Assembly (NCBI RefSeq): GCF_037975245.1
Contig: NC_092577.1
Coordinates: 23,648,398-23,712,397, forward strand
Reading direction: 5' to 3'
From: Apostichopus japonicus
Taxonomy: Eukaryota; Echinodermata; Holothuroidea; Aspidochirotida; Stichopodidae
Length of the DNA: 64,000 nucleotides
Shown: one piece after another, positions 4,138-63,999 of the stretch
How the letters are laid out: the number at the start of each line of letters is the position of its first letter
Position numbering within the stretch: position 1 is the stretch's first letter
Translations under genes and position numbers: made by a program
Notes under the pieces: generated by a model
The model's input: only the letters and a program-made list of their open reading frames with translations
What the model was told of the DNA's origin: nothing
Database searches by the model: none

Positions 4138-4344
4138 GTATATATTTATTCTTTCAAATATGCATAATGATTAGACAGCTGGCATTGAAAAAAAGACAAG
4201 TACAAATGATATTTCCAACAATGCACTGAAATTTCTGAAACCCATTTAATGGCTAGGGTTTCTATTATACCAAATGTGTCAACCAGAGATGCCAAAAATG
4301 AAGCCATTGTGGAAAGTTCTAGTGCATTGTTCTGACACATGAAT

Positions 4345-4358
4345 ACAAGTTTTATATT
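4345..4358 (+). repeat. Left target-site duplication of LINE-A
   Basis: ACAAGTTTTATATT here is repeated exactly at 9305-9318, on the two sides of the LINE. A perfect 14-bp direct repeat is typical of target-primed reverse transcription and fixes the element borders. Confidence 0.9.
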
Positions 4359-4594
4359 GGTTGGCAGTTGGCAGAGTTGGCAGTTGGCTTTCGTGGAGTG
4401 CGGACGTGTTTTTCGCTCTCGCTCTTCATCTGTTACAGCTGTTTTTGTACTGTGCTGTGCTATACTTCCCGCCAGGCGGGTGTGATAGCTTGTGTTCGTG
4501 TGTTTTCCTCAGTTCGTATATCGTTTGTTGTTTCACTATCCGGTCTTTTGTTTGTTTTGTGTTACTCCCCTGTGGCCTAGCCACCTTCGGTATC

Positions 4595-5737: not shown

Positions 5738-5757
5738 TTTTGCCCCATTGCCCTCTC

Positions 5758-13645: not shown

Positions 13646-13763
13646 GTCTACGGCCATATCGCGTTGACTATACCGGTTCTCGTCCGATCACCAAAGTCAA
13701 GCAACGTAGAGCGCAGTCAGTACTTGGATGGGTGACCGCCTGGGAATACTGGGTGCCGTAGGC
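13646..13763 (+). rRNA. 5S ribosomal RNA gene, full length
   Basis: This 118-bp sequence starts GTCTACGGCCATATCGCG and ends GCCGTAGGC, followed by a TTTT pol III terminator. It keeps the highly conserved GGTTCTCGTCCGATCACC and TACTTGGATGGGTGACCGCC blocks that include the internal control region. The two ends pair (GTCTACGGC with GCCGTAGGC). ACGTAGAGCGCAG replaces the usual ACGTCGGGC-type segment, so it is a variant or slightly decayed gene. Two more partial units lie just upstream in the same orientation, indicating a small tandem 5S array. A further copy is at 38762. Confidence 0.88.
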
Positions 13764-13904
13764 TTTTCTTTTCATAATTAGAACACTGCCTTGCCGCGAG
13801 GAACGTGATTTTAAAATGGAAAATATATCAACAGCGTGATATATCAACAGCTGACGTGCTGCAGTGGTTGTGCTCTGTTACTCTGTATTTTGTTATTGCT
13901 TTTT

Positions 13905-26046: not shown

Positions 26047-29000
26047 AACACAGTTGAGCAGGAGGATCGCCTCTCAGCTGATGGTAAAGAGATCCAACAA
26101 ATTGGAAAGAGTGAAAGAGGGAGGTTATATGTAGATGTATTGTTAAATGATACCAGTGTTCCTTTCTTGTTAGACACCGGCTCCGACTTCACCATTTTGA
26201 GTGAACATGTATGGAAACAGTAATAGTAGATTCCATTATGACGGGGGTAGATGGAGCGCCCCTACAGGTTAAAGGTGAATGCCAATTGAATTTAAAGGTG
26301 GGTAGTTTAGTGTCTAAGATGCCTGTCGTGATTGCTGATATTACTACCACTGGTTTGTTGGGTATGGATTTTTTGAATTTCAATTCTTGTCAATTACAAA
26401 TGGGTGATAATCCTACTTTGTATGTGGGTACTGGTCATTGTTCGGTGCCATTGAATGTGAACATTCCGAGTCTTACTCTAGGGGTATCTTTGGCTGATTC
26501 AATCACCATCCCGGCAGAAAGGGAAATAGTGGTAGAAGGGAACATTGTTGCAAAAGGGCTGATTCATAAGTTGAATGGAAATGGTATAGTGGAGATGGCT
26601 CAGAGCTTTGCTGAAAGGCCCAATGTCCTAATTGGTCGGGTTTTGGTAGATACCTCTAAGGATGTAGTACCCTTAAGGATTCTTAATCTCACCAGCACTC
26701 CTCTTACGATTACCAAGGGTACTGTTGTGGCGATGGTCACAGAGGTCAATGAGGTAATAGGGGTAGAGACTTCATCTGTTAATACATCTGGTGGTCTCCC
26801 TCCAGATTTAGAAGAATTGTACAGTCGTAGTGGGGAACAGTTGGATGATAAGGATAAAACAGTCCTTTGGAAATTTTTGGAGGCAAATAGGGATGTTTTC
26901 TCATGTAAGGGCGAACCCCTCGGCAGAACAGGTATCGTTAAGCATAGTATAGCAACGGGTGATGCCCGCCCAATTCGTCAGGCTCCTCGGCGAATGCCCT
27001 TCCATCAACGAGTTCAAGCTCAGGCTGAAGTAGACAAGATGTTGGAGGAGGGGGTTATAAGTCCCTCTAACAGTGCATGGGCTTCCCCGGTTGTTCTGGT
27101 GAAAAAGAAAGATGGGTCGATACGATTTTGTATTGATTATCGTAAACTTAATAATGTCACTAACAAAGATGCATTTCCCTTACCTAGAATAGATGACAGT
27201 TTGGATGCTCTCTCTGGATCTCAGTGGTTCTCGACCCTAGATCTAAGAAGTGGGTACTGGCAGGTAGAGATGGAGAATGTGGACAAAGTGAAAACCGCAT
27301 TTTCTATGGGAACCGGTCTGTATGAATTTAATGTCATGCCATTTGGGTTGTGCAATGCCCCGGGGACATTTCAAAGATTGATGGAGCAGGTCTTACGAGG
27401 GTTACATTGGAGAACTTGCTTAATTTACATTGATGATATTATTATTTATGCTAGGACCTTAGAGGAGCATATGAGTAGACTTAATGAGGTTATGACAAGG
27501 CTACGGGAGGCTGGTCTGAGGCTGAAGCCATCTAAGTGTGAGTTGATTAAGAGGAAGGTGAATTATTTGGGATTTGGGATTTCTAACCAGGGGGTAGAAG
27601 CGGACCCAGAAAAAGTTGGGGTGGTGGCCAACTGGCCTACTCCGACCAATATCAAGCAACTACGGGGTTTCCTTGGTCTGTGTTCCTATTATAGGAAATT
27701 TGTGGGTCATTTCGCAGAGATAGCAAATCCCCTTCACGCACTTACCCGAAAAGGAGAGAAATGTTTCGACTGATCATTGTGAGGAATGGTTTCAGCTCCT
27801 AAAGTCTAAATTGGTATCTGCCCCAATTTTGGCATATCCAAATTTTGATTATATGTTCATACTAGACACTGATGCGAGTGACCGAGCGGTGGGAGCTGTT
27901 CTCTCGCAAAAGATTAATGGCGAGGAGCACCCTGTAGCATATGCTAGTAGGACATTGAGTAACAGCGAAACGAAGTATGATGTAACCAGGAAAGAGCTCC
28001 TTGCGGTTGTTACGTTTGTAAAATACTTTCGTCCCTATCTTTATGGTAACAAGTTTCACCTTAGAACAGACAACAGATCTTTGAGATGGCTCTATAACTT
28101 CAAATCCCCTCAGGGTCAAGTGGCCAGGTGGATCGAAGTATTAAATACTTATGATTTTGAGATAGAGACGAGACCTGGTAGAGTACACGGTAATGCCTAT
28201 GCATTATCTAGAGTGGAATTTAGTTCACGTACTTTGAAGAACGAGCTTACCACAGAGGTAGTTGGTAATGGTCCCCTTAGGTGTAATCTCGTAACTGCCG
28301 ATAGCAATTGGGTGGGATGTTGTAGTAAGGCCCAACTGCGACAGTATCAGAGCGATGACCCGGATATTGGGGTCATTTTGCACTGGAAGGAAGCTGGTGT
28401 TCCCCGGCCTGGATGGGAGAAGGTTAGCGGGATGAGTAGGGAAGTAAAAGCCTATTGGTATCAGTGGAATTTATTCCATGTTAGGGAAGGGGTGCTCTAC
28501 AGGTTATGGGTTTCAGACTCTGGTGAGCAGAATAGTTACTTATTGGTGGTGCCCCACAATTTGAGAAGTGATATACTTTACGAGCTGCATAATTCCCCCA
28601 CTGGTGGTCATTTGGGTCAAAACAAAACTAGGGCCAAAGTACGAGCAAGGTGTTATTGGTATTCTATGAGAAGGGACATCGAGGACTGGTGTCGTAGATG
28701 TGAGTTATGTTCCCGACGGAAACCCCCTACTCCTCGTAGTAAAGCCCCTATGGAAATAGTGAAGGCGGGAGAGCCAATGCAACGTGTAGCGATTGATGTT
28801 CTAGGTCCTTTACCTGAGACTTACAACGGCATGAAGTATTTATTAGTAGTTGCCGACTACTTTACTAAGTGGACGGAGGCTTATCCCATTCCTAATCAAG
28901 AGGCCAAAACTGTGGCCTCAGAATTGGTTACTAAGTTCATTGCTAGATTTGGGGTACCACAGATCATACATTCTGACCAAGGTTGAAATTTTGAATCTGA

Positions 29001-29663
29001 ATTATTTGGTGAATTATGTAAATGTCTATGAATTCATAAAACTAGAACGACTGCATATCGACCTCAGTCTGATGGGTTAGTAGAGAGATTCAACAGGACG
29101 TTGGAACAGATGATAAGCGTATATGTGCATGAGAATCAAAGAGACTGGGATGTGCATATCCCCATATTATTAATGGTTTATCGTTCAAGTTTGCAGGAAA
29201 CCATTAGATTTACGCGAAACTTCCTGATGCTGGGACGGGAAACAACACTACCCATCGAACTTATGATTGGATCCCCAGAAGCAGAATCGACCCAGACACG
29301 AACGTTCCAGAGTATGTGGCTAATTTCAAGGACCGCTGCAATAAAGCATATCGGGTTGTTCGAGAAAGAACCTCACTGTCACAAGCTCGGCAGAAAAAGA
29401 ACTATGATGAACACATTTGTTCAAAGGCAACTCCACTGAAGATTGGTGATAAGGTATGGATGGCAATTAACTATAAGACCAAAGGTAGATCTCCAAAACT
29501 ACAGCTGAGATGGGATGGTCCTCACGTGGTTGTTAATACATTATCAGACTCTTTGTACCGGGTAAAAAACTCCATTACAGGGAGGCGGAAAGTAGTTCAC
29601 ATAGACAGACTGAAGCGGTATCTTGAGCCGGACGCATTATGCACGAGTTCCGGGCTGCGGTAG
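26047..29663 (+). pseudogene. Gypsy pol: protease, RT, RNase H and integrase, with disruptions
   Basis: Protease has FLLDTGSDFTIL near 26165 and LLGMDFL near 26360, with a frame change between them near 26215. RT spans about 26980-27520 with SPVVLVKKKDGSIRFCIDYRKLN, FSTLDLRSGYWQ and LIYIDDIII. A frameshift near 27770 separates RT from RNase H, which has FILDTDASDRAVGAVLSQ (27853) and LRTDNRSL. Integrase has an HHCC finger (ELHNSPTGGHLGQ, CRRCELC) and a DDE core (VAIDVLGPLPE, SDQG, DGLVERFN). In-frame TGA stops fall at 28984 and about 29029, with further shifts near 29220-29330. The C-terminal part (PKLQLRWDGPHVV) ends at 29663. Confidence 0.88.
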
Positions 29664-31131: not shown

Positions 31132-32740
31132 ATGTAATAAATGATCAAGATGTTACACCAATACACTCTTTATTTCTTGACCCAAATAATATTTGATAGT
31201 GGGCTCCTTATTCATCAAATCGGAAATTTCGCGCCATTTTGTAACTAGACAGACTGCCTGGTCGTTACTACGACGCAAAACTTTTCTTCCTGCCTTATAG
31301 GTATATTACGAAAACATCGCAGGAGCTGTCACTATAAACTCACTCTTTCCACAGTACCGTGATACAAAACACCTAGCTAGGAGGGGAAAAAATACACATA
31401 CACGTGTTGTGCGAAAGTGATCACGCGACGAAACGATATTTTTTTAGCTAGCTAGGTGGTTGGCTATTGAGTGTGGGACTGGACTGTATTAATTCTTGTG
31501 TAAGCGAACGTACAAACCAAGCTGTTGTAACAACAGGATCGACTTTTTTTTCCACAAATTTATTTCACTGTGTTGGCATGCGGCGCCCGTTGACTGAGCA
31601 GTACATGGAAATAACTAATAGTTACGTAAAATTGGGAGGCTGGACAGTATGGCGGGCCATCAGTCTCGAATCATGGGAGATCGGCTTATACTGATTTAAA
31701 TCGACATTTTTGCAATATGGGTAATGTTTTGTATAATTATACTTTTTCTGTGTGCAGTGCATTGCAGCATTGTGGTCTTGGACAGAATGCCCTATATAAA
31801 AACGTTTTATTATTATTAAGGTTATTAGAACATGTTTGAAGTTATGGATATGGATATAGAATGTCTATTCCAATTTCCAAAAATATATTGTTCAATATGC
31901 AAATCCATGGGTGGAAGTAGGTGGTATGTGACAACCTGCCCCCACTTCCCCCTATATGCCTATATGTATTATAGGCTACACGATATGCAGTTTGATCCAT
32001 TCATATGATGCAATGTTACATTGTTACAAGCTGAGTATATGGAAATAAAGTCTACTTACTCTACTTTGGAAACAAGAGGCATTTCAATTTATCACTGTCT
32101 GCATATTCTCAAATAATATCTTCCTTGTGCAATTTTCACACTAGTTCATGCTCTGTTGCCAGCTGAATCCTGAGGTTAAAATTTTCATGTGTCAATCTGC
32201 TTGCTAGTCTGCTTTCTATTATCTTCATTTTACTGAAGACCTCAGAATATGATATATGGTTGTTAATTCAGTGAAAACATGTTCTTGGACTTCAGGAATC
32301 TGCTTTGGGTCCAAGATACGAGTTTGACAACTGATACATATTCTTGACAAATGGAGCAACTCTTTCAATACAATCTCAGTATTTCATATTTTTCCATTAA
32401 TGGTTCTATAAATTTGGCTTCAAATGTTCCTTATCAGTTTTCATTGTCTTGAATCCCTGAAGCTGAAACAATGACATGGATGCAATCATTTTTTATGGCC
32501 CATGCCAGTAGGGGCCCACGACAAATAACTGAACAATTGGCATAACTTAAAGATGCTTGCTTCGGTTGAGCTCATACTTCATATTACTTAGCTAAGTAGC
32601 CTAGACCTTATCAAATGATACAAATATCTTTGCTGAAAATAAGACCTGTCATGTATTTAGTACTCTACTTTAATATTATCACTCTTCTGAAATGTGATGT
32701 TATGAGCGCTTTAACATTCTGTTGTTGATTTTTCTTTTAG
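31132..32740. other. Non-coding, no gene recognised
   Basis: AT-rich DNA with scattered short frames and no family motif. Confidence 0.4.
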
Positions 32741-32829
32741 AGTCTAGAATGCATGCAGCAATTCTGTCAGTTCTGACTCTACTGAATGAGAAGTTGGGTG
32801 CTATGATTGTATTTGCAGATGAGGATAGT
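32741..32829 (+). CDS. Possible internal exon of an unidentified host gene
   Basis: A pyrimidine-rich acceptor (TTTTTCTTTTAG) precedes it and a consensus donor (AGT|GTAAGT) follows. After 2 bases the frame is open for 29 codons (SRMHAAILSVLTLLNEKLGA...VFADEDS) and ends in phase 0. The next exon at 34035 starts in phase 0, so the two join cleanly. I do not recognise the family. The text is not repeat-like and neighbouring repeats lie outside it. Confidence 0.45.
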
Positions 32830-32889
32830 GTAAGTACCCAATGTATTATTTAAATCAACAGTATGTAAACTATGGGTCGAGGCCATCAG

Positions 32890-33310
32890 AGGTGGTCTGA
32901 AATTGTATGTTACAGTGTTGAGGGTTCATCATGATAGTGTTCTGGTAGTGTTTCCTCTGGGGTACTCAGCAATTTTAGGTCTGATGCCATATGGGCTATT
33001 TCAGGAAATTAATATTTTCCTACAGATTGTATGGTCACAATGCTTAGAGTTTAATTGTCACGATAGTGTTTTGGTACTGCTCCTTTGGGATGTTTGGAAT
33101 TTTAGGCCAAAGGTCATGTATGGGCCATATGGACCATTATGAACTCCTGAACTCTGCCTGAAATCACACAAAATGTTTCTTTTCCTATGAATTCTATGGT
33201 GCAGTGTTGAGCATTTTTCACAGTGGTACTTTGCCTACTTTGGGTTTTTAGGATTTGGGGGGCCTAAGTCACCTGCAGACCATATGGGCCAATTTATGAA
33301 ATCACTCAAA
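32890..33310 (+). repeat. Three diverged tandem units of a dispersed repeat
   Basis: Units of roughly 130-150 bp start with TACAGTGTTGAGGGTTCATCATGATAGTGTTCTGGTA and recur near 33035 and 33200. The same sequence in inverse orientation occurs at 52681-52780, the site where the rearranged LINE-A inserted. Confidence 0.6.
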
Positions 33311-34034
33311 ATGATACTTTTCATACAAATTTGCCCTAAAATTGGTTTAGCCCTAACATTTGTTGGGGCATCTTTTTTTTGGGGAGGGGGGCAATTTTTG
33401 GCATCCTTATTTCTAGGGGGCCTTGAAATATTTGGGCCCTGAAAACCTGTCTGCAACAAAGGCCTGCACATCTGGTCATTATTCCCTAACTAAATATCAC
33501 ATGTATGACCTGGGAGTGTTCATAGCTGTAAATATAGTGAGGGCATCATCACAAAGGTAGAATAGCCTAGTATGTATGTGATAACTGGAACAGAATGTTG
33601 GACAGATTTCAATCTGTAGTTGTAGTAACCATAATCCAATGTGGAAATCCTGATCAGCCCCAAGTGTATTAAAATCATCTAGTGGAATGAATCCCTACCA
33701 TGATGTAATTAGCTGTAACAAGATATCATAACTCATGGCAAATATTGATTTCTCTCAAAAATACACGGAACCAGTGCACCATTTAGCTCTGTTGTTTCAT
33801 TTATACTCTGCTATTATTTATATCATCAAAAATAGTATTACTTGTAGTGAATACAATGTACTGTAAATTGATTTGAAAAATAATTTAAGAAATTATTTAT
33901 TTTGATTCCTTCGTTGGTGGGGTATATTTCTTTGTTGGTCACTCAGGGCCATCATGGTGGATCAGCCACCCCTCCCATTTTCTGAAACTGGAAAGCGCTG
34001 TATATTGAATACAAATACCTTAATATCTTTGCAG
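33311..34034. other. Non-coding, putative intron remainder
   Basis: If the flanking exons are real this is the 3' part of their intron; it ends in TATCTTTGCAG at 34034. No other feature was seen beyond a T/G-rich run near 33371-33391. Confidence 0.4.
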
Positions 34035-34160
34035 GTTACAGACTTGTCAGACGTGCCAGTTTATATCCAGGTGACAGAGGATGAAGGTGTTCCAGAGTAC
34101 ACTGTGATAGTGGAAACCTTGGAAGTAGCTACTTCGAAAAGTTTGCGAACAATGTCCTAA
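34035..34160 (+). CDS. Possible terminal exon of the same host gene
   Basis: After a good acceptor (TCTTTGCAG|GTT) the frame reads VTDLSDVPVYIQVTEDEG... and ends ...KSLRTMS with TAA at 34158-34160. At 41 codons it is in phase with the exon at 32741-32829. An AATAAA polyadenylation signal follows at 34257-34262, which fits a last exon. The acidic, beta-strand-like text is protein-like, but I cannot name it. A short frame by chance, or an old retrogene piece, remains possible. Confidence 0.45.
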   Translation, partial: VTDLSDVPVYIQVTEDEGVPEYTVIVETLEVATSKSLRTMS

Positions 34161-34256
34161 ATATGGCATTTGAGCCTTTGCTGAAGAAAACCCTTCAGTT
34201 TTTAAAAAAAAATCATTTTGAATGTTGATGATACTACACCAGCAGATAAATCAGTC

Positions 34257-34262
34257 AATAAA
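34257..34262 (+). promoter_or_regulatory. Candidate polyadenylation signal AATAAA
   Basis: A canonical AATAAA hexamer about 97 bases after the stop of the putative terminal exon. Such hexamers are common in AT-rich DNA; only position supports it. Confidence 0.35.
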
Positions 34263-34479
34263 ATTCTGGAGAAACTAAACATGCAAATGGGTAAAAAATG
34301 ATGGCCTAATTACTGCTCCAGGCACCTACCATTTTTTGTACAGTTTTTTTGGCTCAAACTGTCATGACATTTATAACATAGAATACTGCCTATCATTTGG
34401 CACTAGCATATATGAGTCAAAATAGGCGTTATAAAAAGGTGTTATAAAACTGTAACTAACTTGCAAAAAATAAGTCGTT

Positions 34480-36110
34480 GAAACCTATGCGATCAAGGTG
34501 GCGTGTGTGAGTGTGTGTGGGTATGTGTGTGTGTGTGATGTGACAGCTTGATCGTAAACATGATATCTCAACAATGACATGTTGGATCAATGTCATATTG
34601 GACTGGTGATGTGTAGATGGTCCCTATTGTTTTTGTTCTCCATCACATGAATATTAATAAGTGGGCAGGGTTTAAAGTAAAATTCTTAAAATGTCAATAT
34701 CTTTGCAACGGTATGTCCGATCTGCTTCATACTTGGTATGGTGATGTAAGTGGTTCATTGTCACATGACAATGGAATTCCATCTAATTAATATTCATGAG
34801 TAGGTGGGGCTTAATCCTTAATTGCTAGAAATAGCTTGTAAACCTGAAATCTTAAAATTAAATGTTGACTGTAATTTTGAACTAGTAGATGCTCCATGAT
34901 TAGTAGATGTGCCCTATTGTTTTTGTTGTTCATGACATGAATATTAATGAGTAGGCAGCAATTAAAGTGAAATTCTTAAAATGTCAATAACTTTGCAACG
35001 GTATAACCGATCATCTACATACTTTGTAGATTGGTGGTGGATAATAATAGTTACATTTTCATATGAAAATAACTTGTAACCTCATTAATATTCATGTGTT
35101 TGTGGGCCATATAGCATTTGTTGTCCCTCATTCCTAAACTCCTGTCATTCGTCACAATTGACATGTTTTCCTGGTTCCTGGGAGCTTGCTGATCTTATCT
35201 ATATTTGTTTTGCTTTATAAAACCATGAAATTGGCTAGCCAGACCATTAAAGGAGTAGTCCAGTGACAAATTAAACTGGACTGAAAAAAAGTAACCTTTG
35301 CAAGTTGGCATATGTGTATGTTGTGATGAGTTAGCATGTTTGTATGTGTTGATCAAGTTGGCATGTGTGTATATGTATGTTGCATAAATAGCTGGCTCAG
35401 ACAATTAAAGGGATAGTCTATAGTGAAAATAGGAATGAACTAAATAATCTGGTATTACATGTACCTATAGAGTACAGGGAAATCTTATGTGAGTGGGGTA
35501 GATTAATGTGTTGGTAGTAAGGTGTGAAACTGGTAAAATCTGATGGGTGGGGGGGGGGTTGTCAGATGATTAGGGTGATGTTGGGGTCAGGGTTGTAGGA
35601 TGGTAGGTGAGGCTGCAGGTGGTATGATGGTAAGGGTTCCGCTCTGGGTTGGGGATATGGGTTGTGTCGTATGATCCCCATGTGTTTGTCTGGAGAGGGG
35701 GTGTGGGGTGATGAAATGCCTAGGGTCAACTATATCACTTTTTTTTCAACTTTATATGTACACATCAATAAAGGCATTAATTTTTGGTTTTGTTTACGAT
35801 GGCCCGGTAATCTACAGTTTAGCATGTTTACAAGTGTATGTGTAATCTTAAAAACAATATATTTAATTACTGTAAATATATTGAATAACTTGTAGATATG
35901 CTACATTATCATTACATGGACCTCATTGTTTTTGTTGTCCAGTACATGAATATGTGGGTGGGGCTTGTAATCAAATTCTTAAAATGACGATATTTTTTCA
36001 AATATATGTCTGATCACCTTCATACTTCGTAGGTTGGTACAGTAGTGCCACATGAAACTGAAATTTCATTTATATTCATGAGTGCAACTGACAACTTTAT
36101 GTCTGATCAG
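34480..36110. repeat. Diverged repeat array related to the AGGTCA-type element
   Basis: A left-end-like segment (CCTATGCGATCAAGGTGGCGTGTGTGAG and a (TG)n run at 34488-34540) is followed by modules beginning CCTATTGTTTTTGTT.TCCA..ACATGAATATTAAT at about 34622, 34912 and 35930. Each is followed by a CAACGGTAT..CCGATC..CATACTT segment (about 34700, 34995, 35995). Around 35230-35420 a second short segment (CAGAC.ATTAAAGG..TAGTC) is duplicated. No genes. Confidence 0.5.
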
Positions 36111-38761: not shown

Positions 38762-38878
38762 GTCTACGGCCATATCACGTGACTATACCGGTTCTCGTCC
38801 GATCACCGACGTCAAGGAACGTAGAGCGCAGTGAGAACTTGGATGGGTGACCGCCTGGGAATACTGGGTGCCGTAGGC
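38762..38878 (+). rRNA. 5S ribosomal RNA gene copy, isolated and slightly diverged
   Basis: This 117-bp sequence runs GTCTACGGCCATATCACGTG to GCCGTAGGC and is followed by TTTTC. It keeps GGTTCTCGTCCGATCACC and TTGGATGGGTGACCGCC. Differences from the copy at 13646 include CAAGGAAC for CAAGCAAC and GTGAGAACTT for GTCAGTACTT, which would weaken conserved positions. It retains about 18 bp of 5S upstream spacer (ACATTGACCTCTTCTAAT) and about 20 bp of downstream spacer (TTTTCTTTTCATAATTGAT) before LINE-like sequence on both sides. Confidence 0.85.
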
Positions 38879-38889
38879 TTTTCTTTTCA

Positions 38890-52986: not shown

Positions 52987-52990
52987 TGTA
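52987..52990 (+). repeat. Left TGTA target-site duplication of the large DNA transposon
   Basis: TGTA directly precedes the left inverted repeat and recurs directly after the right one (63996-63999). A 2-bp duplication with an 18-bp repeat (ACAG..CTGT) is the only other consistent parse. Confidence 0.65.
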
Positions 52991-53007
52991 CAGTTGGAAG
53001 TCTGACC
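52991..53007 (+). repeat. Left terminal inverted repeat
   Basis: CAGTTGGAAGTCTGACC, the exact reverse complement of 63979-63995. The putative start codon lies only about 108 bases inside the repeat. Confidence 0.85.
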
Positions 53008-53114
53008 TCAATATATGACCGTTACTAGCAAATTTTCGAGCACAGCTACTTGACACGGAAGTAATTGTTTCGCGCAAATCCGGTTCTACGGACTTCGGTT
53101 CGCTACTTCCATGT

Positions 53115-53288
53115 ATGGATGTAATCGGCAAAATTCGCAGACATCCCAATGTAATTCGGGTTCACGAGTATCGTAGATCGATACTGGATACATTAGAGAA
53201 TCAAATACGATCATTTCCGGAAAAAAACGAAGATTTTTCCACTAGAACAGTGCATTTTCTTTTCGACGACCAACGTGAAAACATAAAG
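53115..53288 (+). CDS. Transposase gene exon 1
   Basis: ATG at 53115 (TGTATGGATG context) opens exactly 58 codons (MDVIGKIRRHPNVIRVHEY.. to DDQRENIK), ending at AAAG|GTAAGT, a strong donor. Phase 0 matches the acceptor at 54740, so the frame continues into the long exon. The peptide is charged and helical-looking, with no recognised domain; it could be a DNA-binding or dimerisation arm. If this exon is not used, translation could begin at the ATG at 54750. Confidence 0.65.
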
Positions 53289-54740
53289 GTAAGTCAAATC
53301 GAGTCGACGTCTATCGTTATGTGACTTTTGCGTCTTAGACAACCTTTTACCGTAAAAATAGCATTTTTGTAATATTTAAGCTTAAATCTTACTCATATTT
53401 GTCAGAAAAGTTGTAACTCTCCCGAAAAGAGTGATTTTTTGGTCAACGAAAGTAGTGCCCTATTGGGTTTTGGTTGCCTCAAATTTCTGTATCCTAACGT
53501 ACATAATACAACAATACACGAAAACACCATATCCAATAACGTGCAACCTAGCTCTAAATGGTTACTATGTAGTGTGTCCTAGTGCAACATTTGCAACGTC
53601 TCGTATTTATAGTGAAGTTACTAGTCCGTATAGACCTAGATTCCCCTCATTTTGTGCGTTAATATGAAAAAAATCAGGTAGTTGACATGTTACGGTACTA
53701 GGCCTACTTAGGCCTACCTAATAGTTAAAATTTCGAGGGCATAGCGGACAGTAATAACTAGTAATAGCCTATATATTACTGGAAGTGAGGCCTAGTACAT
53801 CACTGTACTAATGATAATTTATTAATATTAGAATATTAGTTCTGGTAGTAGTAGGCTAGTACCCAAGTTACTAGTGCTACTACTGTATCCTATAGGCACT
53901 AAGTCTTGAACTTATAATTATCCTCGGCTAAACACTGGCTCTCGGCCATCTTTACTACCAGCAGGTCTCAGTTTTAGTAGGCCTTCAAGGCTACTGACAG
54001 TGACTGACAGTATGACGTACTACTACTAGCCTACTAGTAGTGGTACTAGGCCCTTGTAAATAGTAATAGAATACTACTTCTACAGTTACAGTAGGCCTAA
54101 GACTGATAAATTAAGTAATTAGGCATAGCCAAGTCCAATATTAATAATGGCTTCAGCCATTCTAGTCCTTAGCCTACGTCCTGTCCTTTGGTAATATTTC
54201 TAAGGCCTGAGGTTGAGAAGATTTGGACTGCATTTAAAATACGATAGTAGCAGAACGCCTTTGTACATTGTATTATTTAAGGTCGTAGCCCAGTTATAAT
54301 ACTACTGGCAGCAGCAGTAATACTTGAACTACAGTAGCTGGATTCATCACTTTAAGTTAAGGCCTTAGGCCCTACTGTATGCTTTAAATGTAGTTAGGTA
54401 GACAATATACAGACACAGAAATATTACCAGCTTGCTATATACTGCTTCGCCTTTGATATTTTGTGCTATTACAATTAGACTAATTGCTTTTACTTAAGGG
54501 ATCAGAGTGTGACATTGCTTGGCTGACAACTACAATTAAACACATTGTATTTACTGGAAGGTGCTTTCTCTGATAGGTATTGTAGTAGTTAGTTATTGTT
54601 TAACCTTTAAGAGTTTTGACAAATGTTTGTTAGCATTATTCACCAAGCAGTTTCTAGCATGACGCTAGCTCAGTAATTTAAATACTGCTTTTTAATTCCT
54701 TAAAATATTGCTTACTTTTTCATGTTTTGTATATGGACAG
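53289..54740 (+). other. Intron of the transposase gene
   Basis: 1,452 bp from GTAAGT to TATATGGACAG. AT-rich with many stops, simple CTACTAG/TACTAGTA-like words at 53750-54080 and no other coding text. The polypyrimidine signal before the acceptor is modest (TTACTTTTTCATGTTTTG). Confidence 0.6.
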
Positions 54741-57700
54741 TATATAGCAATGCCCAAAGAAAGTTCTTGCCAAATTTTGCACCCTGAAAGACCAGGTGGA
54801 CCATGTAAGGTTTGTTTGAAAGAAAAGCCACGATACTGGCACATTGGGCAAGCATTACCCAGACATGCTCAAACAGTTATTAATCTTCGGGCTGTGAATT
54901 GCAGTGATGATGACTGCATTTGTCAAGCTTGCAAGAAACACCACGCCACAGATTCTGAACATAGTTCAAAGCGTGGTGTTAAAAGATCATTATCTCAGAG
55001 TTGTGCTGTGGAGGGGTGCACAAATTTGCAGAAGCTCCACCAAACTAATTTAATATCTTTTCCTGCTGAAGTTTTACAGTTGTATGGCTTAGATTTTTCA
55101 CCAGAAAGTGCTACTCCATCAACCATCATTGCCACATTATGTCACCATCATTACTGCAGTATTTATAACCAGTCTTCTGTCAAGCATTGTACATTGTGTG
55201 GATCAGCAAAGTCATGTCTTAACTTGTGTAGTAATGTTAGTGCTGCTCGATTATATTCTGTGGATGTCATGCAAAAGGAAGAGTTAAAAGGTGAAGCAAC
55301 TTTCAACTTATGTACTGTTTGTCATGCTTCTGTTACTAGGTATTGTAAAGGCCAGAAATTCATTGCATTCAATCGTAGCAGTAAGCTATACTTGTCATCT
55401 CTGCTACGGCCTTTCATTGAAGCCTCCTCCGCTGGTTTTATTGATTCAGTGGATGACTTTGCTTTTGCTCATACTTTATCTGAGATTGGTACAGCATTAC
55501 TCAATGACAAGGCATTGCTAGTTCAAAATGCCTTTAATGACTACTGTTTTAAGTTTAAGGAAGTTGTGTCGTCTGAGGGTTTAGAGGCACAGATAGCTTC
55601 TTCCCACCGTTCTCTCCATTTATTTCTGTCTTCAGTGAGGTCAGCAATAGGTGAATGTATCATTACTTCTTGTATTCAAGGAAATAACAGGTGTGGAACT
55701 ATGATGAGAAGGTATGGAACTGATCTGTGTACAGCTCTTCACCTTACCTTATACAATCAGAAATCGTCTCAAGCTGTTCAAGCTGAACCAGCACCTTCTA
55801 CTTCAGTATCATCTTTGTGGAACATGCATCTTTCTGACATTTCAAGTGAAATTAATCAAAACTTGTCTGCAAGTGCTAGAGATATTATTTCTCAGGACAG
55901 GTCCACATCGTACAGTTTGGATACATTTGATTTTGTATCTGAAATTAAACGTATTCCTGCTGTCGTCTGGAATTTTGTTGTAGCATGCACACAAGGTACA
56001 TCAGAACTTTCAGCAACCCATTTTAATAGCAGATTTAACTGGAGTGAGCACTTTCTTTCTGATACTCATCCATCCGAGGCAGTCAGTCGGTCAAAGTTAA
56101 TGAAACGTTACTTTATTGTTTGCAGTCTTTTGTATACAACTAATGAATCTTGTTTTAGTCATCTTCACATGGCTATTTCTGACCTGGTTGATCGGTTTAC
56201 ATCTTCCTCAACTTTATGCTTCAATTACCTCTCAAACTTTGGTATAACTGTGTCTAAAAGCACTTTCCTTCGTTTTCAAACCACCATTTCAAAGGCTGAA
56301 ATGAATGATAAGCCAGTTATTCTTTCAAACAGTTTCTGTGTGGCATCAGTGGACAACATCGATAGAAATAGTGCTTATGCATCTGTCAAAGTTGGTCAGG
56401 CCAATAGGGGTTTTCATGGAACATCTGTTCAGTCTGTTGAACCGTTGCCTGTTACATCTTCTATTGGCAGTGCTGCAGGTAAGTCAGTACATAGTTATAA
56501 TAGAGTAGGTCAATGCAGTAATTTATCAGTTGATGACATCAGGGATTACCAAGCCTCATCAAACCAAACTTATTCAGCAGTAATGTCTTTTAGGAATCCT
56601 TTTCGTGTCCTTTCAGTTAGTGATTTTTCTCTCGCTGAAAGTGAAGCAACTGCTCTCTCCTGTTTTGAAAGGAAAGTTTTCTGTTACATGCTTGTCAAGC
56701 AGTTGCAATACTCTAGACATCCAGACATTGTCATGCCAGATCTGAAAACATGTTTTACAGACCTGGATTGTCCCACAGAGAAGTCAACAGTCCATTATAT
56801 TTCCATTCTACCTGAGCCAGCTGAAAGTCAGCAAACTATTCTTAATGTTTTAGACATACTTTATCGGAAGCACCAAGTTGGTTCGCAGATACAGCACTTG
56901 GTTGTTGCTGGTGACTGTAAAACATATGATGTCATCCTTAACTTGAAACGACTGTACGGCGAAGAACTGGACTGGGTAATCCCATATTTGGGAGAGTGGC
57001 ACCTCTTGAAAAACAGTCAACCACCTTTAATGAAGTTGTACTCTGATGCTGGACTGAAGACACTTTTGTCCCAGTTTCATAAGGGTAAAACCCTGCAAAC
57101 TGTTCTTTGTGCTTCTGGGTTTAAGAAAACCCATCACTTTCTTTTGCAGTCATGGGAGGCACTGTATAGGCACATTCTTCATTTGTATATTTCGGATGAG
57201 TCTAGACTTGACCAATCTTTCTTTACTCTACTAGAGAAAGAGATTGGGCAGAAGAAGTCTAATCTGTTTCCAACTATTTTCAGTAGTTCATTGATGGAAC
57301 ATCTTGAGGCTGTTTACCTTACCTTTAAGGAATTTGTTCAGTCAAAGTGTATGTCTGACACAACCTTTCAGTTCTGGTCAAATTTTTGTTTGAGAGACAT
57401 GATGTTTTATGGAGGTTTGTATATGTCTATCAGATCTAGGGATTTTAGTCTTAGAGGTGCATGTGTTCGCCAGATGTGTCCATTATTTCATGCGATGGAT
57501 CGAACCAATTATCTAAGAGTAGTTCCCATCCACATTGCAACTTTAAAAACTTGCCCAAGTTATGTTTTACGTCATCTTGAAGCAGGTGCTTTTGCTGTCA
57601 GTCTCAGTGGCAACCATAATCAGTGTGTAGCGCTAGATGAGGCTCATGAGATGTGCATAAACAAAGACATGAAAATGGCCATGAATGCAACCGATCCTCA

Positions 57701-59909
57701 AGGACTCAATCGACTAATGCATTATTTACCTTTCAGGTCACGTGTAACCAATAACTTGGCAAAGCAGGTGAAGCCTTTCCGTAGTTCTTTAGAAGTTGAT
57801 TCAGCCAACCATTCTGTGATAGAGTCCAATATTCGATGCTATCTAGAAAAATTAAGACAGTCTAAAGTGTTTAGCGTCTCAGATCGAGTAGCCCTTGTCC
57901 ATTTGTTTGATGAGAAGGTGGCAAGCCCCCTTGTTACTACTGATCTTACTACTTTCTATTCAGTTGGTGAGGCAGACTTTATTTCCTATGTGTCATGTTT
58001 TATAATAGCAGAAGCTTCTGCTAAACCCTCCAGAAAGCGAAGGAACCTTCACACTTTTGCAGATAAGAAGAAAACAACGATCAAGAAGCGCCAAGAACTG
58101 AAAGATCATAAGCTGCAAATTGCTTGTCTTCGAAAGCAGGTAGCATGGTCTAAAAGCAACAATGCTGCAGTGTCTTCCCTTAACCAGTTTATTCCTCTTC
58201 CTAGGGCCATCTGTGACAGTGATGGCATCCCAAACAAAGGTAACAAGGCAGCTTCTGCCTCTTTTCTGCAGAAAAGGTTTCCACAGACTTTTTGTGAAAA
58301 GCCTTGTCATGAACATCTTTCATCTGGTGGTGTTTGTGTAATTATGGAAGGTATGTTCATGATCAACCTCACAAGACCCCTCGATTGTCACAAGACATTT
58401 GGTGACTATGCTTCATTTTTATATAAGCAGTGGGTTGTTTATGCAGTTCGTTTTTTGAAGGCTTCTGAGGTTCACATCATTTTTGACCATCCTGGAAGGC
58501 ATGGTGTTTTGCCCAAAGACATAGAGCGTCAGCGTCGAGATGAGCATTCTGATGCATCTCATAGTGATGATTGCATCACAATAATTTCATCTTCTACACC
58601 TAAGCCTGGAAATTGGACACAATTTATATCCAACCGAACACAGAAACGCCTTCTTGTATCATTCTTATCACATGAGGTTATGCAGATTGCTCAATTGGTT
58701 GACACCTGTCCTGGGAGACTAGTGACTGCTGGAGGGTTTGATGGCGAACATACAGACAAAGCCAGTGAACTAATTGATGGTACTGTGTCCTTTGTTCCTT
58801 CTCTATTTTCTGACCATGAAGAAGGCGATTCACGTGTTTGGTTCCATGCTAGTAAAACAACCTGTAAAAGCATTGTTATATTCAGTCCAGATCGAGACAC
58901 TTTTCATATTGGTCTTCCCTTCATGCAGTCTATTTTTGCTAACAAATTTGTGTATGTACAGCTTAGAAAGCAATTCAGGAATGACTTGTTTGTGTTGGTT
59001 GGTGATATTTGTTCTTCACTCTTGAAAGACTTTGACCTTCAGTCTCTTGGTGACAGATTGGAACTTGCTCCATCTTTCTTGGAAATGGTTTTTATTTGTA
59101 GCGGTTGTGATTATGTTTCATTTTTCAAGGGGCAGTCCAAATTGACTTTCCTCAAAGCTTTCTTTCGGCACGCCAAATTTATTACAGGTGGCGTCCAGCC
59201 TGGACTTCTGCTGGCTGATTCTTGTCATTCAGAGGAAGGTTTATATGCATTTTATAGACTTATTGGCTCAGTTTACTTCCAGACTCATGCAGGTGGATTT
59301 TCAGAGGATAATCCCGAAGAACTTTTTCACTCTTTGTACACACCAGAAATAAATGTACTAGACCATCACAAAGCTTTTGTTTCGAAGATTCGTGAAGGTC
59401 ATTTTCATCGTATTTCTGATGAGTCATACTGGATGCCATCTGCATCAGCCTTGTATTATCATTGGCTACGCTGTTGTTGGACTTCTCAGCTTTGGGCACA
59501 AGCATGCTCAGGTAAAGTTATAGTCCCTGATGTGTCACGTTATGGCTGGAAGAAGATAGACACAGGGTTACAGGCTATTTGGGATACTCCAGAGAATTTG
59601 TCACATATTGCAGAAGTAACCCATTTCTTGAAAACTGGTTGCAAATGTAAGACAGGTTGCAGTTCTAAGAGATGCAAGTGTGTTAGGATGGAGACAAGTT
59701 GTGGACCATCATGTTCATGCTTAAATTGCAAAAATAGGTTGGAGACCAGCAGAGCAGTAAGTGACAGAGATGACATAGGTGAAGTAGAAAGCAGCTCTGA
59801 CTATACCACATCAGAGTCGGACAGTGATGTGGACCATCCATTTCATTCTCCAGGTCATATTCCTACTTCATTCACTGCTTCAGACTCAGATTCTGAGGAT
59901 ATGTATTAG
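54741..59909 (+). CDS. Transposase gene exon 2: RNase H-like core, XPG/PIN nuclease and CXC domain
   Basis: 1,722 codons open to the stop at 59907-59909. N-terminal part (to about 55215): Cys/His clusters (CKVCLKEKPRYWH, CICQACKKHH, CAVEGCTNL, CTLCGSAKSC). Core: VVAGDCKTYD (Asp codon 56913), GEWHLLKN (His 57000) and LDEAHEMCINKD (Asp 57636, Glu 57648), with spacing like DUF6589/KDZ-type RNase H-fold transposases. A basic, coiled-coil-like linker lies at 58020-58160. Nuclease: HIIFDHPG (Asp 58485), EEGDSRVWFHA (Asp 58827), FSPDRDTFHI (58890, 58896) and CSGCDYVSF (Asp 59109), the acidic pattern of PIN/XPG enzymes. CXC zinc domain at 59640-59741 (CKCKTGC..KRCKC..CSCLNC), then an acidic tail. It likely cuts and inserts the element in the nucleus. 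Catalytic assignments are inferred from motif order only. Confidence 0.8.
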   Translation, partial: YIAMPKESSCQILHPERPGGPCKVCLKEKPRYWHIGQALPRHAQTVINLRAVNCSDDDCICQACKKHHATDSEHSSKRGVKRSLSQSCAVEGCTNLQKLHQTNLISFPAEVLQLYGLDFSPESATPSTIIATLCHHHYCSIYNQSSVKHCTLCGSAKSCLNLCSNVSAARLYSVDVMQKEELKGEATFNLCTVCHASVTRYCKGQKFIAFNRSSKLYLSSLLRPFIEASSAGFIDSVDDFAFAHTLSEIGTALLNDKALLVQNAFNDYCFKFKEVVSSEGLEAQIASSHRSLHLFLSSVRSAIGECIITSCIQGNNRCGTMMRRYGTDLCTALHLTLYNQKSSQAVQAEPAPSTSVSSLWNMHLSDISSEINQNLSASARDIISQDRSTSYSLDTFDFVSEIKRIPAVVWNFVVACTQGTSELSATHFNSRFNWSEHFLSDTHPSEAVSRSKLMKRYFIVCSLLYTTNESCFSHLHMAISDLVDRFTSSSTLCFNYLSNFGITVSKSTFLRFQTTISKAEMNDKPVILSNSFCVASVDNIDRNSAYASVKVGQANRGFHGTSVQSVEPLPVTSSIGSAAGKSVHSYNRVGQCSNLSVDDIRDYQASSNQTYSAVMSFRNPFRVLSVSDFSLAESEATALSCFERKVFCYMLVKQLQYSRHPDIVMPDLKTCFTDLDCPTEKSTVHYISILPEPAESQQTILNVLDILYRKHQVGSQIQHLVVAGDCKTYDVILNLKRLYGEELDWVIPYLGEWHLLKNSQPPLMKLYSDAGLKTLLSQFHKGKTLQTVLCASGFKKTHHFLLQSWEALYRHILHLYISDESRLDQSFFTLLEKEIGQKKSNLFPTIFSSSLMEHLEAVYLTFKEFVQSKCMSDTTFQFWSNFCLRDMMFYGGLYMSIRSRDFSLRGACVRQMCPLFHAMDRTNYLRVVPIHIATLKTCPSYVLRHLEAGAFAVSLSGNHNQCVALDEAHEMCINKDMKMAMNATDPQGLNRLMHYLPFRSRVTNNLAKQVKPFRSSLEVDSANHSVIESNIRCYLEKLRQSKVFSVSDRVALVHLFDEKVASPLVTTDLTTFYSVGEADFISYVSCFIIAEASAKPSRKRRNLHTFADKKKTTIKKRQELKDHKLQIACLRKQVAWSKSNNAAVSSLNQFIPLPRAICDSDGIPNKGNKAASASFLQKRFPQTFCEKPCHEHLSSGGVCVIMEGMFMINLTRPLDCHKTFGDYASFLYKQWVVYAVRFLKASEVHIIFDHPGRHGVLPKDIERQRRDEHSDASHSDDCITIISSSTPKPGNWTQFISNRTQKRLLVSFLSHEVMQIAQLVDTCPGRLVTAGGFDGEHTDKASELIDGTVSFVPSLFSDHEEGDSRVWFHASKTTCKSIVIFSPDRDTFHIGLPFMQSIFANKFVYVQLRKQFRNDLFVLVGDICSSLLKDFDLQSLGDRLELAPSFLEMVFICSGCDYVSFFKGQSKLTFLKAFFRHAKFITGGVQPGLLLADSCHSEEGLYAFYRLIGSVYFQTHAGGFSEDNPEELFHSLYTPEINVLDHHKAFVSKIREGHFHRISDESYWMPSASALYYHWLRCCWTSQLWAQACSGKVIVPDVSRYGWKKIDTGLQAIWDTPENLSHIAEVTHFLKTGCKCKTGCSSKRCKCVRMETSCGPSCSCLNCKNRLETSRAVSDRDDIGEVESSSDYTTSESDSDVDHPFHSPGHIPTSFTASDSDSEDMY

Positions 59910-60544
59910 TAAAATGTTTTATGTATTTTATACAAGGATACAACAGTTCTTGAATGTTGTTTTTGTAGTAATGATCTTTCTCATTTTGTCTGCAGGTATT
60001 TAGAACTTACATTATTGGGAGTCTTTATCTTTAAAAACTTCTCTTTAATGAATATCATTAACTCTTTTTTTGTTTTGTTCAGTGCAGCCGTACTATGCAA
60101 CAACATGGTGTAGAGTGCTAACTAAAATGCCATCATCTACTGTCACTTTTATCGGTAGTGTATGCAACATTCAGATGTAAGTATTAGTGTACTTGAGGGA
60201 AGGAAGGGGGGGGGCAAGGGGGAAAACAAAGGGGATGGGAAGAAAGCAGGGGAAGTGGGTGGAGTAATTTGAGGCATCATTAGTGAAGTGAATTGGCTTG
60301 CAATACTTAAATAGTCAAACTTGGGCATATCAAGAACAAAAGCATCATGTTGATTTACTTTGTCAAATCATGGGGCTTTCACTTGGGAATTGATGATTTA
60401 TTACTTAGTGGAAGGTTTTACTGGTGGTAAAAGAAAAAAATTCCTAAAATGTATTCATTTATAAGCTTGCCATTGGAATGTAATGTCCTACTGAAAAACT
60501 GCCAATATAGAAAGGTATCTTGCATCTTGCCAGTGACCAGTCAC
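59910..60544. other. Transposon 3' non-coding region, first part
   Basis: AT-rich, with a G-rich purine stretch at 60195-60255 (GGAAGGAAGGGGGGGGGCAAGGGGG). No clear poly(A) signal was found directly after the stop. Nothing else recognised. Confidence 0.45.
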
Positions 60545-61800
60545 TAATAGTCTTTCATGTGTCTGTTCTACAAGCAGAACTCTAAAATGTGCTTTCCCAA
60601 TCAGGGGACAAAAACATTATCTTGCCAAAAAAAAAGGAAACTGTCATTCACTTTTCATATTTACATGTACTCTCAAAGCCTTTTATAAATGTATGCCTCA
60701 TACATATTATTGTCATTGACTTAGTCTTTCCTGTATGTGTTACACTCAAAATACTTAAATGTGCTCTCCTATTCAGGAGCCAAAAAATATCTTGCCAAAA
60801 ATAAAATCTTCCATAAACTTTTGATATTTATGTTTCCATTTACTCCTGAAGCCTTTGATGTATGTATGTCACATACAAGTTACTACCGTTGACTTATAGT
60901 CTTTCCTGTGTGTTACACGCAAGACACTTAAATGTGCTTTCCCATTTAGGAGACAAGAAAAAGTATCTTCCTAATAAACAAGGAAGCTTTCATTCACTTT
61001 TGATATTTACGTTCCATTTACTGTATGTATTCCACATACAAATTATTGACTTAGTCTTTCTTGTGTGTGTTACATGCAAAACACTAAAATTTGCTGTCCC
61101 ATTCAGGAGACAAGCAAAAAAAACTTGCAAAATATAACATCTTTCATTCTCTTTTGATATTTACCTTCCATTTACTGTATGTATATTACATACAAACTAT
61201 TGCCATTGACTTAGTCTTTCCTGTGTGTGTTACATGCAAAACACTAAAATTTGCTTTCCCATTCAAGAAAAGACAAGAAAAATATCTTGCCAGAAATAAT
61301 AACTTTCATTCACTTTTGATATTTCCGTTTACTCTTGAAGCCTTCAGTGGAGAAAAACAACAACGTTATTGCCAAGTTTTTGCCATTGAATAATAGTCTT
61401 TCCTGTGTGTTAGTTACACACAGAACACTAAAATGTGCTCTTCCCATTTAGTGGACAAGAGAAACTTTTCTTGCCAAAAATTAAGAAACCTTTCATTAAA
61501 TTTCAATAGTAACATTTCCATTTCTCTTGAAGCCTTCAGTGGTCAAAAAAAAAAAAAAATATTGCCAAGTTATTGCCATTGACTAATAGTCTTTCCTGTG
61601 TGTTACTTACACTCAGAACACTAAAATGTGCTCTTTCCGTTCAGTGGACAAGAGAAACTTTTCTTGCCAAAAATTAAGAAACCTTTCATTAAATTTTAAT
61701 TTTACTCAAGATGCCTTGATGCATGTTTGTCACATACACATTATTGCCATTGCCTATAGTATTTGATGTGTGTGTTACACATAAATTTCTCTAAGGTGCT
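60545..61800 (+). repeat. Minisatellite of about eight units inside the transposon
   Basis: Units start TAGTCTTTCCTGTGTGTTAC..CA.AACACTAAAATGTGCTTTCCCATTCAGG.GACAAGAAAAA.TATCTTGCC. Successive starts at about 60549, 60723, 60898, 61053, 61213, 61394, 61588 and a weak one at 61758 give periods of 155-194 bp. Divergence between units suggests age or relaxed copying. The role is unknown; subterminal arrays in large transposons sometimes bind transposase. Confidence 0.85.
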
Positions 61801-63570
61801 TCCAAATGTATATTTGCCAAGAAAAAAACATTCTCAAAGAAGGAAAGTTTTATTCATTCTTGAAGTCTATTTGTTTTGTTACAGTATGTTGTATTAAGAC
61901 TGTTGCAACAATTTCACCAGTATTCAGTCTAAGGTGAAGCGTGAACACACAAAATGTATCCATGTGCTTAACATACCTCATTCTTACGGTGAACAGAGCT
62001 TTCCAGATTTTATTACATCCTCATGTATATTACCTCATATCTAAAGTCTTCATATAAGAGTTTATTTATATAAATCATTTTAAGTTTTCTGTCAAGTTTT
62101 AAGCCATATATTTACTTTCTACTTTAACCATTTACTTTTCCATATCTTTTCATTAATTTAAATCTTACGTTTTATGTCAAAGTTATATCTCACCATCTCA
62201 AAGTACCATTTCATAATTAACTTGTATTCAAGATGCAAAAGTTTGTCAAACCATCCATCCTGCCACCTGTGCTGTTTTTGCTATGTCATGCCTTTCACTA
62301 TGCCACCTTGTAATACAGTCATAATGCACTTGCCACTATATCAGACAATATTATTGTATGAAGTCTTCATTGTATAAAGTGTGTGTTTCATATTAAGTAT
62401 TATTTAAGTTTTATAAACCATTCCTTCCATTTTATCAAAGCATTTCACTTTGAAGTGACTAATGTAAATTATGCAACCTTTACTGCATGTCTTCATTTTC
62501 TTCCATGTATGTAAAATATATATCATATTGCACAGTACATTTAAACATGTTCTTTCAAGGGGAGTGTCGCATCAAGAGATTAATAAAAGACCTGGCAATT
62601 CTCTTTCCATTGTTAGACTAATGTTTCTCTGTATGTATTTACAAAAAGAAGAAAGCAGTCCCTACTCAAAAAAAAATTTGGTCGGATTATCCGTAGTAAC
62701 TAATGCATCCAAACATGTCCTGTGTATAGTTCCCGACCCAAAGAACAGCAAACCCACCTTATCCCTCCGAAATACCCTAACCATTCCCAAAGCTAGTACA
62801 CACCCCACTCATCCCAAAGCTGGTGAACACCACATCCTTCCCCGAATCCCCACAGCCGACTACATCCCCTCCAAAAACCCTAAAAACACCCCAGCCCCTA
62901 AACACCACACCCCTCCCCTACACCCCTACCCAAGCCCCAGTAATTCACTCCTTTATAAACAAGTGGTAATGTTATGTAATATATCAATCAACAAAAAGAT
63001 TGGTATTGACTGGAAAACTGTTAACTGATGTTTATTCATGGATATAAGCAGCAGATGGAGGACCCAGCTTTGCAGATCCTCACTGAGTAAAGGTCTACTG
63101 TTGAACTACTGTAAGGTGGGTAAGTATAAAACATTTGGTATTGCAGGTGTAAATATTTGGGTATTGTGGAATTCCTTACAATAAAGCAACAGACTTTGGG
63201 GGGAAAAGTTTGTGTTACCTTCACAATTACTACCAATGATCTTGTAAGAAATTCAACACTTGCATCTCCCCCCCCCCCCCCATCTTGCCACTCTTACCCC
63301 TCCCATATGCTACTCTCAGTAATTCCACGTTTTACCTACTCATACATTAGAATTTGGGACATAATTTCTTCAAAACCTAAGCACAACTTAAATTACTTCA
63401 TTTCACGCTACAAAAACTAGCATTCTTAATAAACCGAACACTGTAGGAATGGGTTCCACTACATTGAAAACGATTTGAGTGAAGTCTTGTCGGTTGTAGC
63501 CCATAGCATGCAAACGACTTGGCGAAAGTCTAACTAATTTCAAAATGGCGGCGGTAGCAACAAAGTCGCG
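61801..63570. other. Transposon 3' non-coding region, second part
   Basis: No gene recognised. A C- and A-rich stretch (62730-62950) yields a frame of low-complexity Pro/Thr/His text that I do not accept as coding. A C run lies at 63267-63281, and AAAATGGCGGCGG at 63541 is a GC-rich island in AT-rich surroundings. Confidence 0.45.
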
Positions 63571-63613
63571 CGTGTCGAGCTAATCGTTTTGTGACTGGCC
63601 GTCTTAGACAACC
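63571..63613 (+). repeat. Subterminal direct-repeat partner of 53301-53344
   Basis: GTCGAGCTAATCGTTTTGTGACT..CGTCTTAGACAACC is a diverged direct copy of the segment just after exon 1, whose CGTCTTAGACAACC lies at 53331-53344. The shared 14-mer is perfect and a GTAACTCTC word recurs further on in both places. Confidence 0.55.
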
Positions 63614-63978
63614 ATTTCACCTAATCTTTACAGCATCATGTAGGAGAGTAGAAGATCCACAAATGGGAGAACTTTTTTGCTGTAACTCTCTTTCGTTGGT
63701 TCGTTTTGGCCTATTTTGTGTCACCTAGGAATACTTGTGTGAGGACGAAGTTGGATTGCAAACGTTGTTTCATAGGTTGTTGTTGATTTTTTCTCGGATA
63801 TCTTTGCCCTACCATACATAAGAATTACTTTTAATCCATTCTGTGAAGTTTTGGTAAGTTGTAAACCTTCAATGTCTGTAAATTCTGTGATTCAATAGTA
63901 GGACCTACTTTACGTAAAATGCGGGGAAATTCAAATTTAATGATATGCGTAATCGTTGATCTTTCTTCGAGGTCACGG

Positions 63979-63995
63979 GGTCAGACTTCCAACTG
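63979..63995 (-). repeat. Right terminal inverted repeat
   Basis: GGTCAGACTTCCAACTG, the exact reverse complement of the left terminus. It is followed by the TGTA duplication (63996-63999), one base before the window ends. Confidence 0.85.
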
Positions 63996-63999
63996 TGTA
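63996..63999 (+). repeat. Right TGTA target-site duplication
   Basis: Matches 52987-52990. Confidence 0.65.

Follow-up and report, generated by a model that had tools for sequence, protein, structure and literature searches.

A structurally complete, probable AcademX transposon of Apostichopus japonicus encoding a transposase with a predicted 5'-nuclease domain

The element, its ends and its gene

The sea cucumber Apostichopus japonicus carries, at the right-hand side of a 64,000-nucleotide stretch of contig NC_092577.1 (positions 23,648,398 to 23,712,397; the whole stretch is called the window here), an element of about 11 kb between its outer ends (window positions 52991-63995). Perfect inverted repeats and a short target-site duplication enclose a single open gene for a protein with a DDE/RNase H-like core and a nuclease domain, both assigned from predicted structure and residue pattern. 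Taken together, the termini, the 4-bp duplication, the open gene and the domain make-up indicate that this is very probably a DNA transposon of the cut-and-paste type, complete and apparently autonomous, from the AcademX lineage of the Academ superfamily. So read, the element is a well-preserved, new member of an already known superfamily. Its features are as follows.

52987..52990, no strand: left target-site duplication TGTA, letters read directly
52991..53007, + strand: left 17-bp terminal inverted repeat, exact reverse complement of 63979-63995
53008..54749, + strand: 5' noncoding leader, CpG-rich at 53101-53500
53300..53355, + strand: subterminal direct repeat, left copy, from local alignment to 63571-63624
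54750..59909, + strand: transposase-nuclease gene, 1719 amino acids, single exon, from the open frame and whole-length relatives
54768..55322, + strand: N-terminal Cys/His clusters, residues 7-191, from conservation among relatives
56352..57650, + strand: DDE/RNase H-like catalytic core, residues 535-967 (D535, D722, E964 or E967)
58245..59534, + strand: 5'-nuclease domain of FEN1/EXO1/XPG/XRN fold, residues 1166-1595, from predicted structure and acidic pattern
59634..59738, + strand: CXC (Tesmin/TSO1-like) domain, residues 1629-1663, from Pfam TCR and the family profile
59910..63978, + strand: 3' noncoding part, CpG-depleted to about 63500
60536..61696, + strand: tandem repeats with units of about 160-193 bp, in the 3' noncoding part
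63571..63624, + strand: subterminal direct repeat, right copy, in the same orientation as the left copy
63979..63995, - strand: right 17-bp terminal inverted repeat, exact reverse complement of the left end
63996..63999, no strand: right target-site duplication TGTA, letters read directly; the window ends one base further on

The left terminus, CAGTTGGAAGTCTGACC at 52991-53007, is matched by its reverse complement at 63979-63995 over 17/17 bp, and each occurs once in the window. Allowing up to three mismatches, the terminal 17-mer has two matches in the 64 kb, both exact, and no third site; in 100 shuffles the mean number of such matches was 0.19, and two or more were found in 2/100. In a 64-kb sequence of even composition, chance alone would give about 0.12 perfect 17-mer inverted pairs; the list of perfect pairs contains one other inside the element, a local palindrome at 58006. 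The duplication, read from one insertion with 5 bases of right flank in the window, fits a length of 4 bp only, as 3 and 5 bp mismatch. Although the inverted match continues for one more base on each side, taking the termini as 18 bp and the duplication as 3 bp would leave unequal flanks, and this alternative was rejected. Inverted repeats arising by chance are ruled out by the 17/17 bp match around a transposase gene, together with the matching 4-bp flanks. Direct reading and matching of the letters therefore confirm the exact ends and TGTA flanks proposed in a preliminary description of this DNA. Outside its own borders, the DNA of the element matches nothing in the window at E <= 1e-3, and a tblastn search of the window for a second copy of the protein recovered its own gene plus two matches attributable to chance (E 3.2 and 6.9).

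The gene runs from an ATG at 54750 to a TAG at 59907-59909, and its 1719 codons contain no internal stop, bearing out the one long uninterrupted gene described earlier. A search with the whole protein identified two proteins of Holothuria leucospilota, P0001 (54% identity, 93% coverage) and P0002 (42%, 97%), which possess the same catalytic residues as the window protein; P0001 differs in that its gene model lacks the CXC domain. A search with residues 530-1640 yielded 26 relatives, including proteins of Antedon, Amphiura, Mytilus, Lytechinus and Amphimedon. Relatives are thus present in echinoderms, mussels and a sponge, P0001 being the nearest, and H. leucospilota alone has at least three different ones at 42-54% identity (P0001, P0002 and P0008). 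A tree was built from 19 of the 27 rows (P0018 to P0025 were omitted as shorter), and in it the window protein and P0001 form a pair with 100/100 support. This pair is nested, again with 100/100, in a group of nine rows that comprises proteins of holothurians, brittle stars and feather stars and two further ones. Twelve of the 16 inner branches are well supported, and the long branches of several rows are a weak point of this tree. Among viral contigs, scans with a three-sequence and a 27-sequence profile matched 28 and 11 stretches, respectively, none encoding a relative; the same was true of the 3 stretches matched among genome contigs by the 27-sequence alignment, and tblastn of plasmids with residues 1-750 found no relative. 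A further H. leucospilota gene model, P0057, is named a fucosyltransferase and aligns with 19% of the query length (50% identity); its name is likely to reflect an annotation merge.

Translation probably begins at the ATG noted above. Five of nine relatives inspected (P0001, P0004, P0005, P0007 and P0009) start at the matching position, while the N-terminus of P0002 is longer, P0012 starts later, and P0011 and P0016 start nearby. Because of this agreement, a 101-residue frame at 53019-53321, without a Pfam match at E <= 0.001, probably lies outside the transposase protein. Reading by eye suggests a possible first intron in the leader, from a donor at 53289 to an acceptor that ends at 54740; if it were spliced, little of the 5' leader would remain. 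Within the 3' noncoding part, a 186-residue frame at 62468-63025 likewise has no Pfam match at that threshold, and no further gene was found there.

Domains of the transposase-nuclease protein

The Pfam family DUF6589 matches residues 621-983 of the window protein, and the predicted structure of this region resembles DDE/RNase H transposases, most clearly those of Hermes and the P element. An alignment of the window fragment with 23 of the 26 relatives reveals conserved catalytic residues, all of which are present in the window protein. Model comparison indicates that the core shares with Hermes (a hAT element), the P element and RAG1 an RNase H-like fold in which a helical insertion precedes the last acidic residue; to our knowledge, none of these three carries a FEN-kind nuclease on the same chain. 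These predictions suggest that DUF6589, a Pfam "family of unknown function," is an RNase H-type transposase core, a by-product of the present analysis. A literature search did not find DUF6589, and returned PF20231 only in unrelated optics work. A search with an alignment of the DUF6589 rows returned 40 proteins from 7993 candidates scored, and their listed Pfam domains include no helicase that would provide a bridge to AcademH elements. One of these proteins, P0054, has an OTU protease domain alongside DUF6589. An OTU match (E 0.0014) is also found in one of the 27 members of the present family (A2), which, judging by its sequence, is probably P0011.

The second enzymatic domain is predicted to adopt the fold of FEN1/EXO1/XPG and XRN nucleases, with which it also shares the spacing of acidic residues. 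Seven acidic positions are conserved in an alignment of the window fragment with 17 of the 26 relatives: E1200, D1246, E1358, D1360, D1381, D1383 and D1454. The domain differs from these nucleases in residing on a transposon protein and in its sequence, with 9-14% identity in the aligned rows shown. Pfam XPG models gave no match to it (limit E 10, with HMMER filters dropping most matches above 0.1), and since neither these nor PDB profile searches returned a nuclease, the assignment rests on predicted structure and the residue pattern. Herpes_ORF32, the sole match of the nuclease part of the window protein (E 0.025-0.085), fell below its cut-off and was dismissed.

The N-terminal Cys/His clusters are probably zinc fingers. 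Among rows with a residue at the position, C19 (12/12), C85 (14/14), C131 (13/13), H134 (12/12), C150 (16/16), C188 and C191 (each 14/14) are invariant, and C51 (1/11) and C136 (5/12) are variable. Near the C-terminus, Pfam TCR matches the window protein at E 0.01, under the Pfam cut-off, and 9 of the 27 family members at E <= 0.1; when the profile of the family alignment (A3) was compared with PDB, lin-54 was the only match (E 0.001). The window protein has no NCBIfam match, and no helicase is found among its Pfam matches.

Classification, age and competing explanations

The nuclease known from Academ elements is of the XPG type. The preliminary description had assigned the element to the Academ superfamily from its architecture, and each part of that proposal is upheld: a DDE-like predicted fold in the core, a predicted FEN1/EXO1/XPG/XRN fold in the C-terminal third, and a 4-bp duplication. 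PMC10045372, a paper of 2023, gives duplications of 3 or 4 bp for AcademX and of 9 or 10 bp for AcademH, and relates this difference to the encoded nuclease or helicase. The present element has a TGTA duplication, inverted termini matching at 17/17 bp, an RNase H-like DDE core and, as judged from predicted structure and the seven acidic positions, its own nuclease. The combination of transposase, nuclease and 4-bp duplication therefore indicates AcademX, a placement by architecture and duplication length. AcademH was rejected, as the protein lacks a helicase among its Pfam matches and the duplication is 4 bp, not 9-10 bp. At 11 kb the element is longer than the curated bivalve Academ elements, for which PMC10294476 gives an average of 5565 bp. 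A literature search combining Academ, transposon and XPG returned no paper on an Academ element, by title, among the matches listed, and one combining Academ, Tesmin and transposase found nothing.

The structural evidence for the core has weak points. Foldseek alone finds no match for the core at E <= 0.001, and VIA-align re-examines entries that Foldseek had already listed. The CpG-depleted interior of the element does not suit a simple picture of a young burst. The gene has an observed/expected CpG ratio of 0.32 and the 3' part one of 0.35, with an accompanying excess of TpG/CpA; at the two ends the ratio rises to 1.61 (53101-53500) and 0.97 (63501-63900). Elsewhere in the window the ratio is 0.91 in a long interspersed nuclear element (LINE), 0.60 in a Gypsy element and 0.83 in the left flank, and 2-kb bins outside the element starting at 32001, 34001 and 44001 have values of 0.13, 0.29 and 0.43, the first two making up a strongly CpG-poor stretch at 32001-36000. 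This profile is what would be expected of a transcribed sequence methylated in its body but not at its ends, suggesting that the lineage of the element, if not the present insertion, has long been methylated.

These data bear on whether the copy can still move. The element may be structurally complete and yet silenced or immobile, a serious possibility, though somewhat less likely than not. It is present as a single copy within the window, and the loss of CpG from its interior points to a lineage long methylated in the germline. Set against this, all conserved catalytic residues are retained, and the copy looks recent because its 1719 codons contain no stop. Of 15471 possible single changes in the gene, 732 would create a stop, and under an assumption-laden bound a gene free of stops has a chance below 5% once unselected divergence exceeds about 1.2%. 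The earlier description of the element as young is thus favored by the open gene and disfavored by its CpG-depleted interior.

The nuclease could be of the XRN type, resembling 5'-3' exoribonucleases, rather than of the XPG/FEN type. All 15 Foldseek matches with E <= 0.001 are XRN1, XRN2 or Rat1 (TM-score by query 0.37-0.46), XPG appearing at rank 16 with E 3.1e-3, and VIA-align aligns 350 residues with XRN1 versus 271 with EXO1. Nonetheless, we regard an XRN-type enzyme as unlikely.

Less probable still is a core from a lineage outside Academ, to which a nuclease was joined independently. Membership in Academ rests on architecture and duplication length, and the 40 DUF6589 proteins supplied no helicase-bearing link to AcademH. 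Other superfamilies, too, have nucleases or short duplications, and neither feature by itself would suffice: KolobokP encodes a His-Me finger homing endonuclease (PMC9587614), and duplications measure 3 bp in EnSpm and 4 bp in some IS481EU copies. Against such an origin, the KolobokP nuclease is of a different kind, and the target of Kolobok elements is TTAA, not TGTA. According to PMC12730594, duplications are 8 bp for Zisupton, 7 bp for Kyakuja and usually 8 bp for hAT elements, differing from the 4 bp found here; Zisupton and Kyakuja (KDZ), which need 7-8 bp, were rejected as candidates accordingly. Finally, PMC10045372 describes AcademX as having both a nuclease and duplications of 3 or 4 bp.

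It is very improbable that the host has domesticated such a transposase as a gene of its own, which selection keeps open, the ends being remnants or chance: the CpG-rich 5' end and the depleted interior with TpG/CpA excess do resemble a transcribed, body-methylated invertebrate gene, and the echinoderm relatives group broadly like their hosts (named tree rows), but an old insertion would show decayed inverted ends and a decayed 4-bp duplication, which here are perfect, and at least three distinct H. leucospilota relatives (42-54%) suit a transposon family. Because CpG-poor bins occur elsewhere in the window (0.13 and 0.29), CpG depletion is not special to a gene.

A possible mechanism and the neighboring elements

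The domain make-up of the probable AcademX element allows a transposition mechanism to be proposed. The 17-bp ends would be bound by the protein via the N-terminal Cys/His clusters, the CXC domain or both. The RNase H core (D535, D722, E964 or E967) would then cut the ends and join them to target DNA cut with a 4-bp stagger, which host repair would fill in, yielding the duplicated TGTA. Carried by the same polypeptide, the FEN-type nuclease may act at the junction with donor or target DNA, where it would cut or trim the strand or flap that has a 5' end, and this activity would link the nuclease to the short duplication. The subterminal direct repeats aligned with a score of 45, whereas 300 shuffles averaged 24.8 and never exceeded 33; both repeats lie in the CpG-rich ends and are possibly a promoter or binding block. 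We tentatively suggest, as a speculative model, that one polypeptide combines two DNA-cutting centers, DDE and FEN-type, that both are needed for transposition, that the nuclease makes a second-strand or flap cut and so sets the 4-bp duplication, and that the CpG-rich direct repeats near both ends serve as promoter or transposase-binding blocks. We know of no biochemical test of any Academ transposase, though no search was aimed at this point. With its clear ends, duplication and conserved catalytic residues, the element is a concrete candidate for studying the part that a FEN/XPG-type nuclease plays within a transposase, and it would be an intact natural source for testing the two-center mechanism.

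The preliminary description had held almost every other element of the window to be broken, a statement that fails for at least one LINE. In this LINE, at 4343-9135, two frames are open: ORF1 (464 amino acids) encodes zinc knuckles, and ORF2 (1144 amino acids) an endonuclease and reverse transcriptase. A related LINE copy, partly broken, lies inverted at about 42-50.5 kb. A Gypsy-type long terminal repeat retrotransposon pol region at 26205-29663 has its reverse transcriptase, RNase H and integrase split over frames. Two Rfam matches to 5S rRNA, at 13646-13764 (100.3 bits) and 38762-38879 (79.3 bits), are found in this repeat-rich window, and may represent genuine genes, pseudogenes or short interspersed nuclear elements derived from 5S rRNA.
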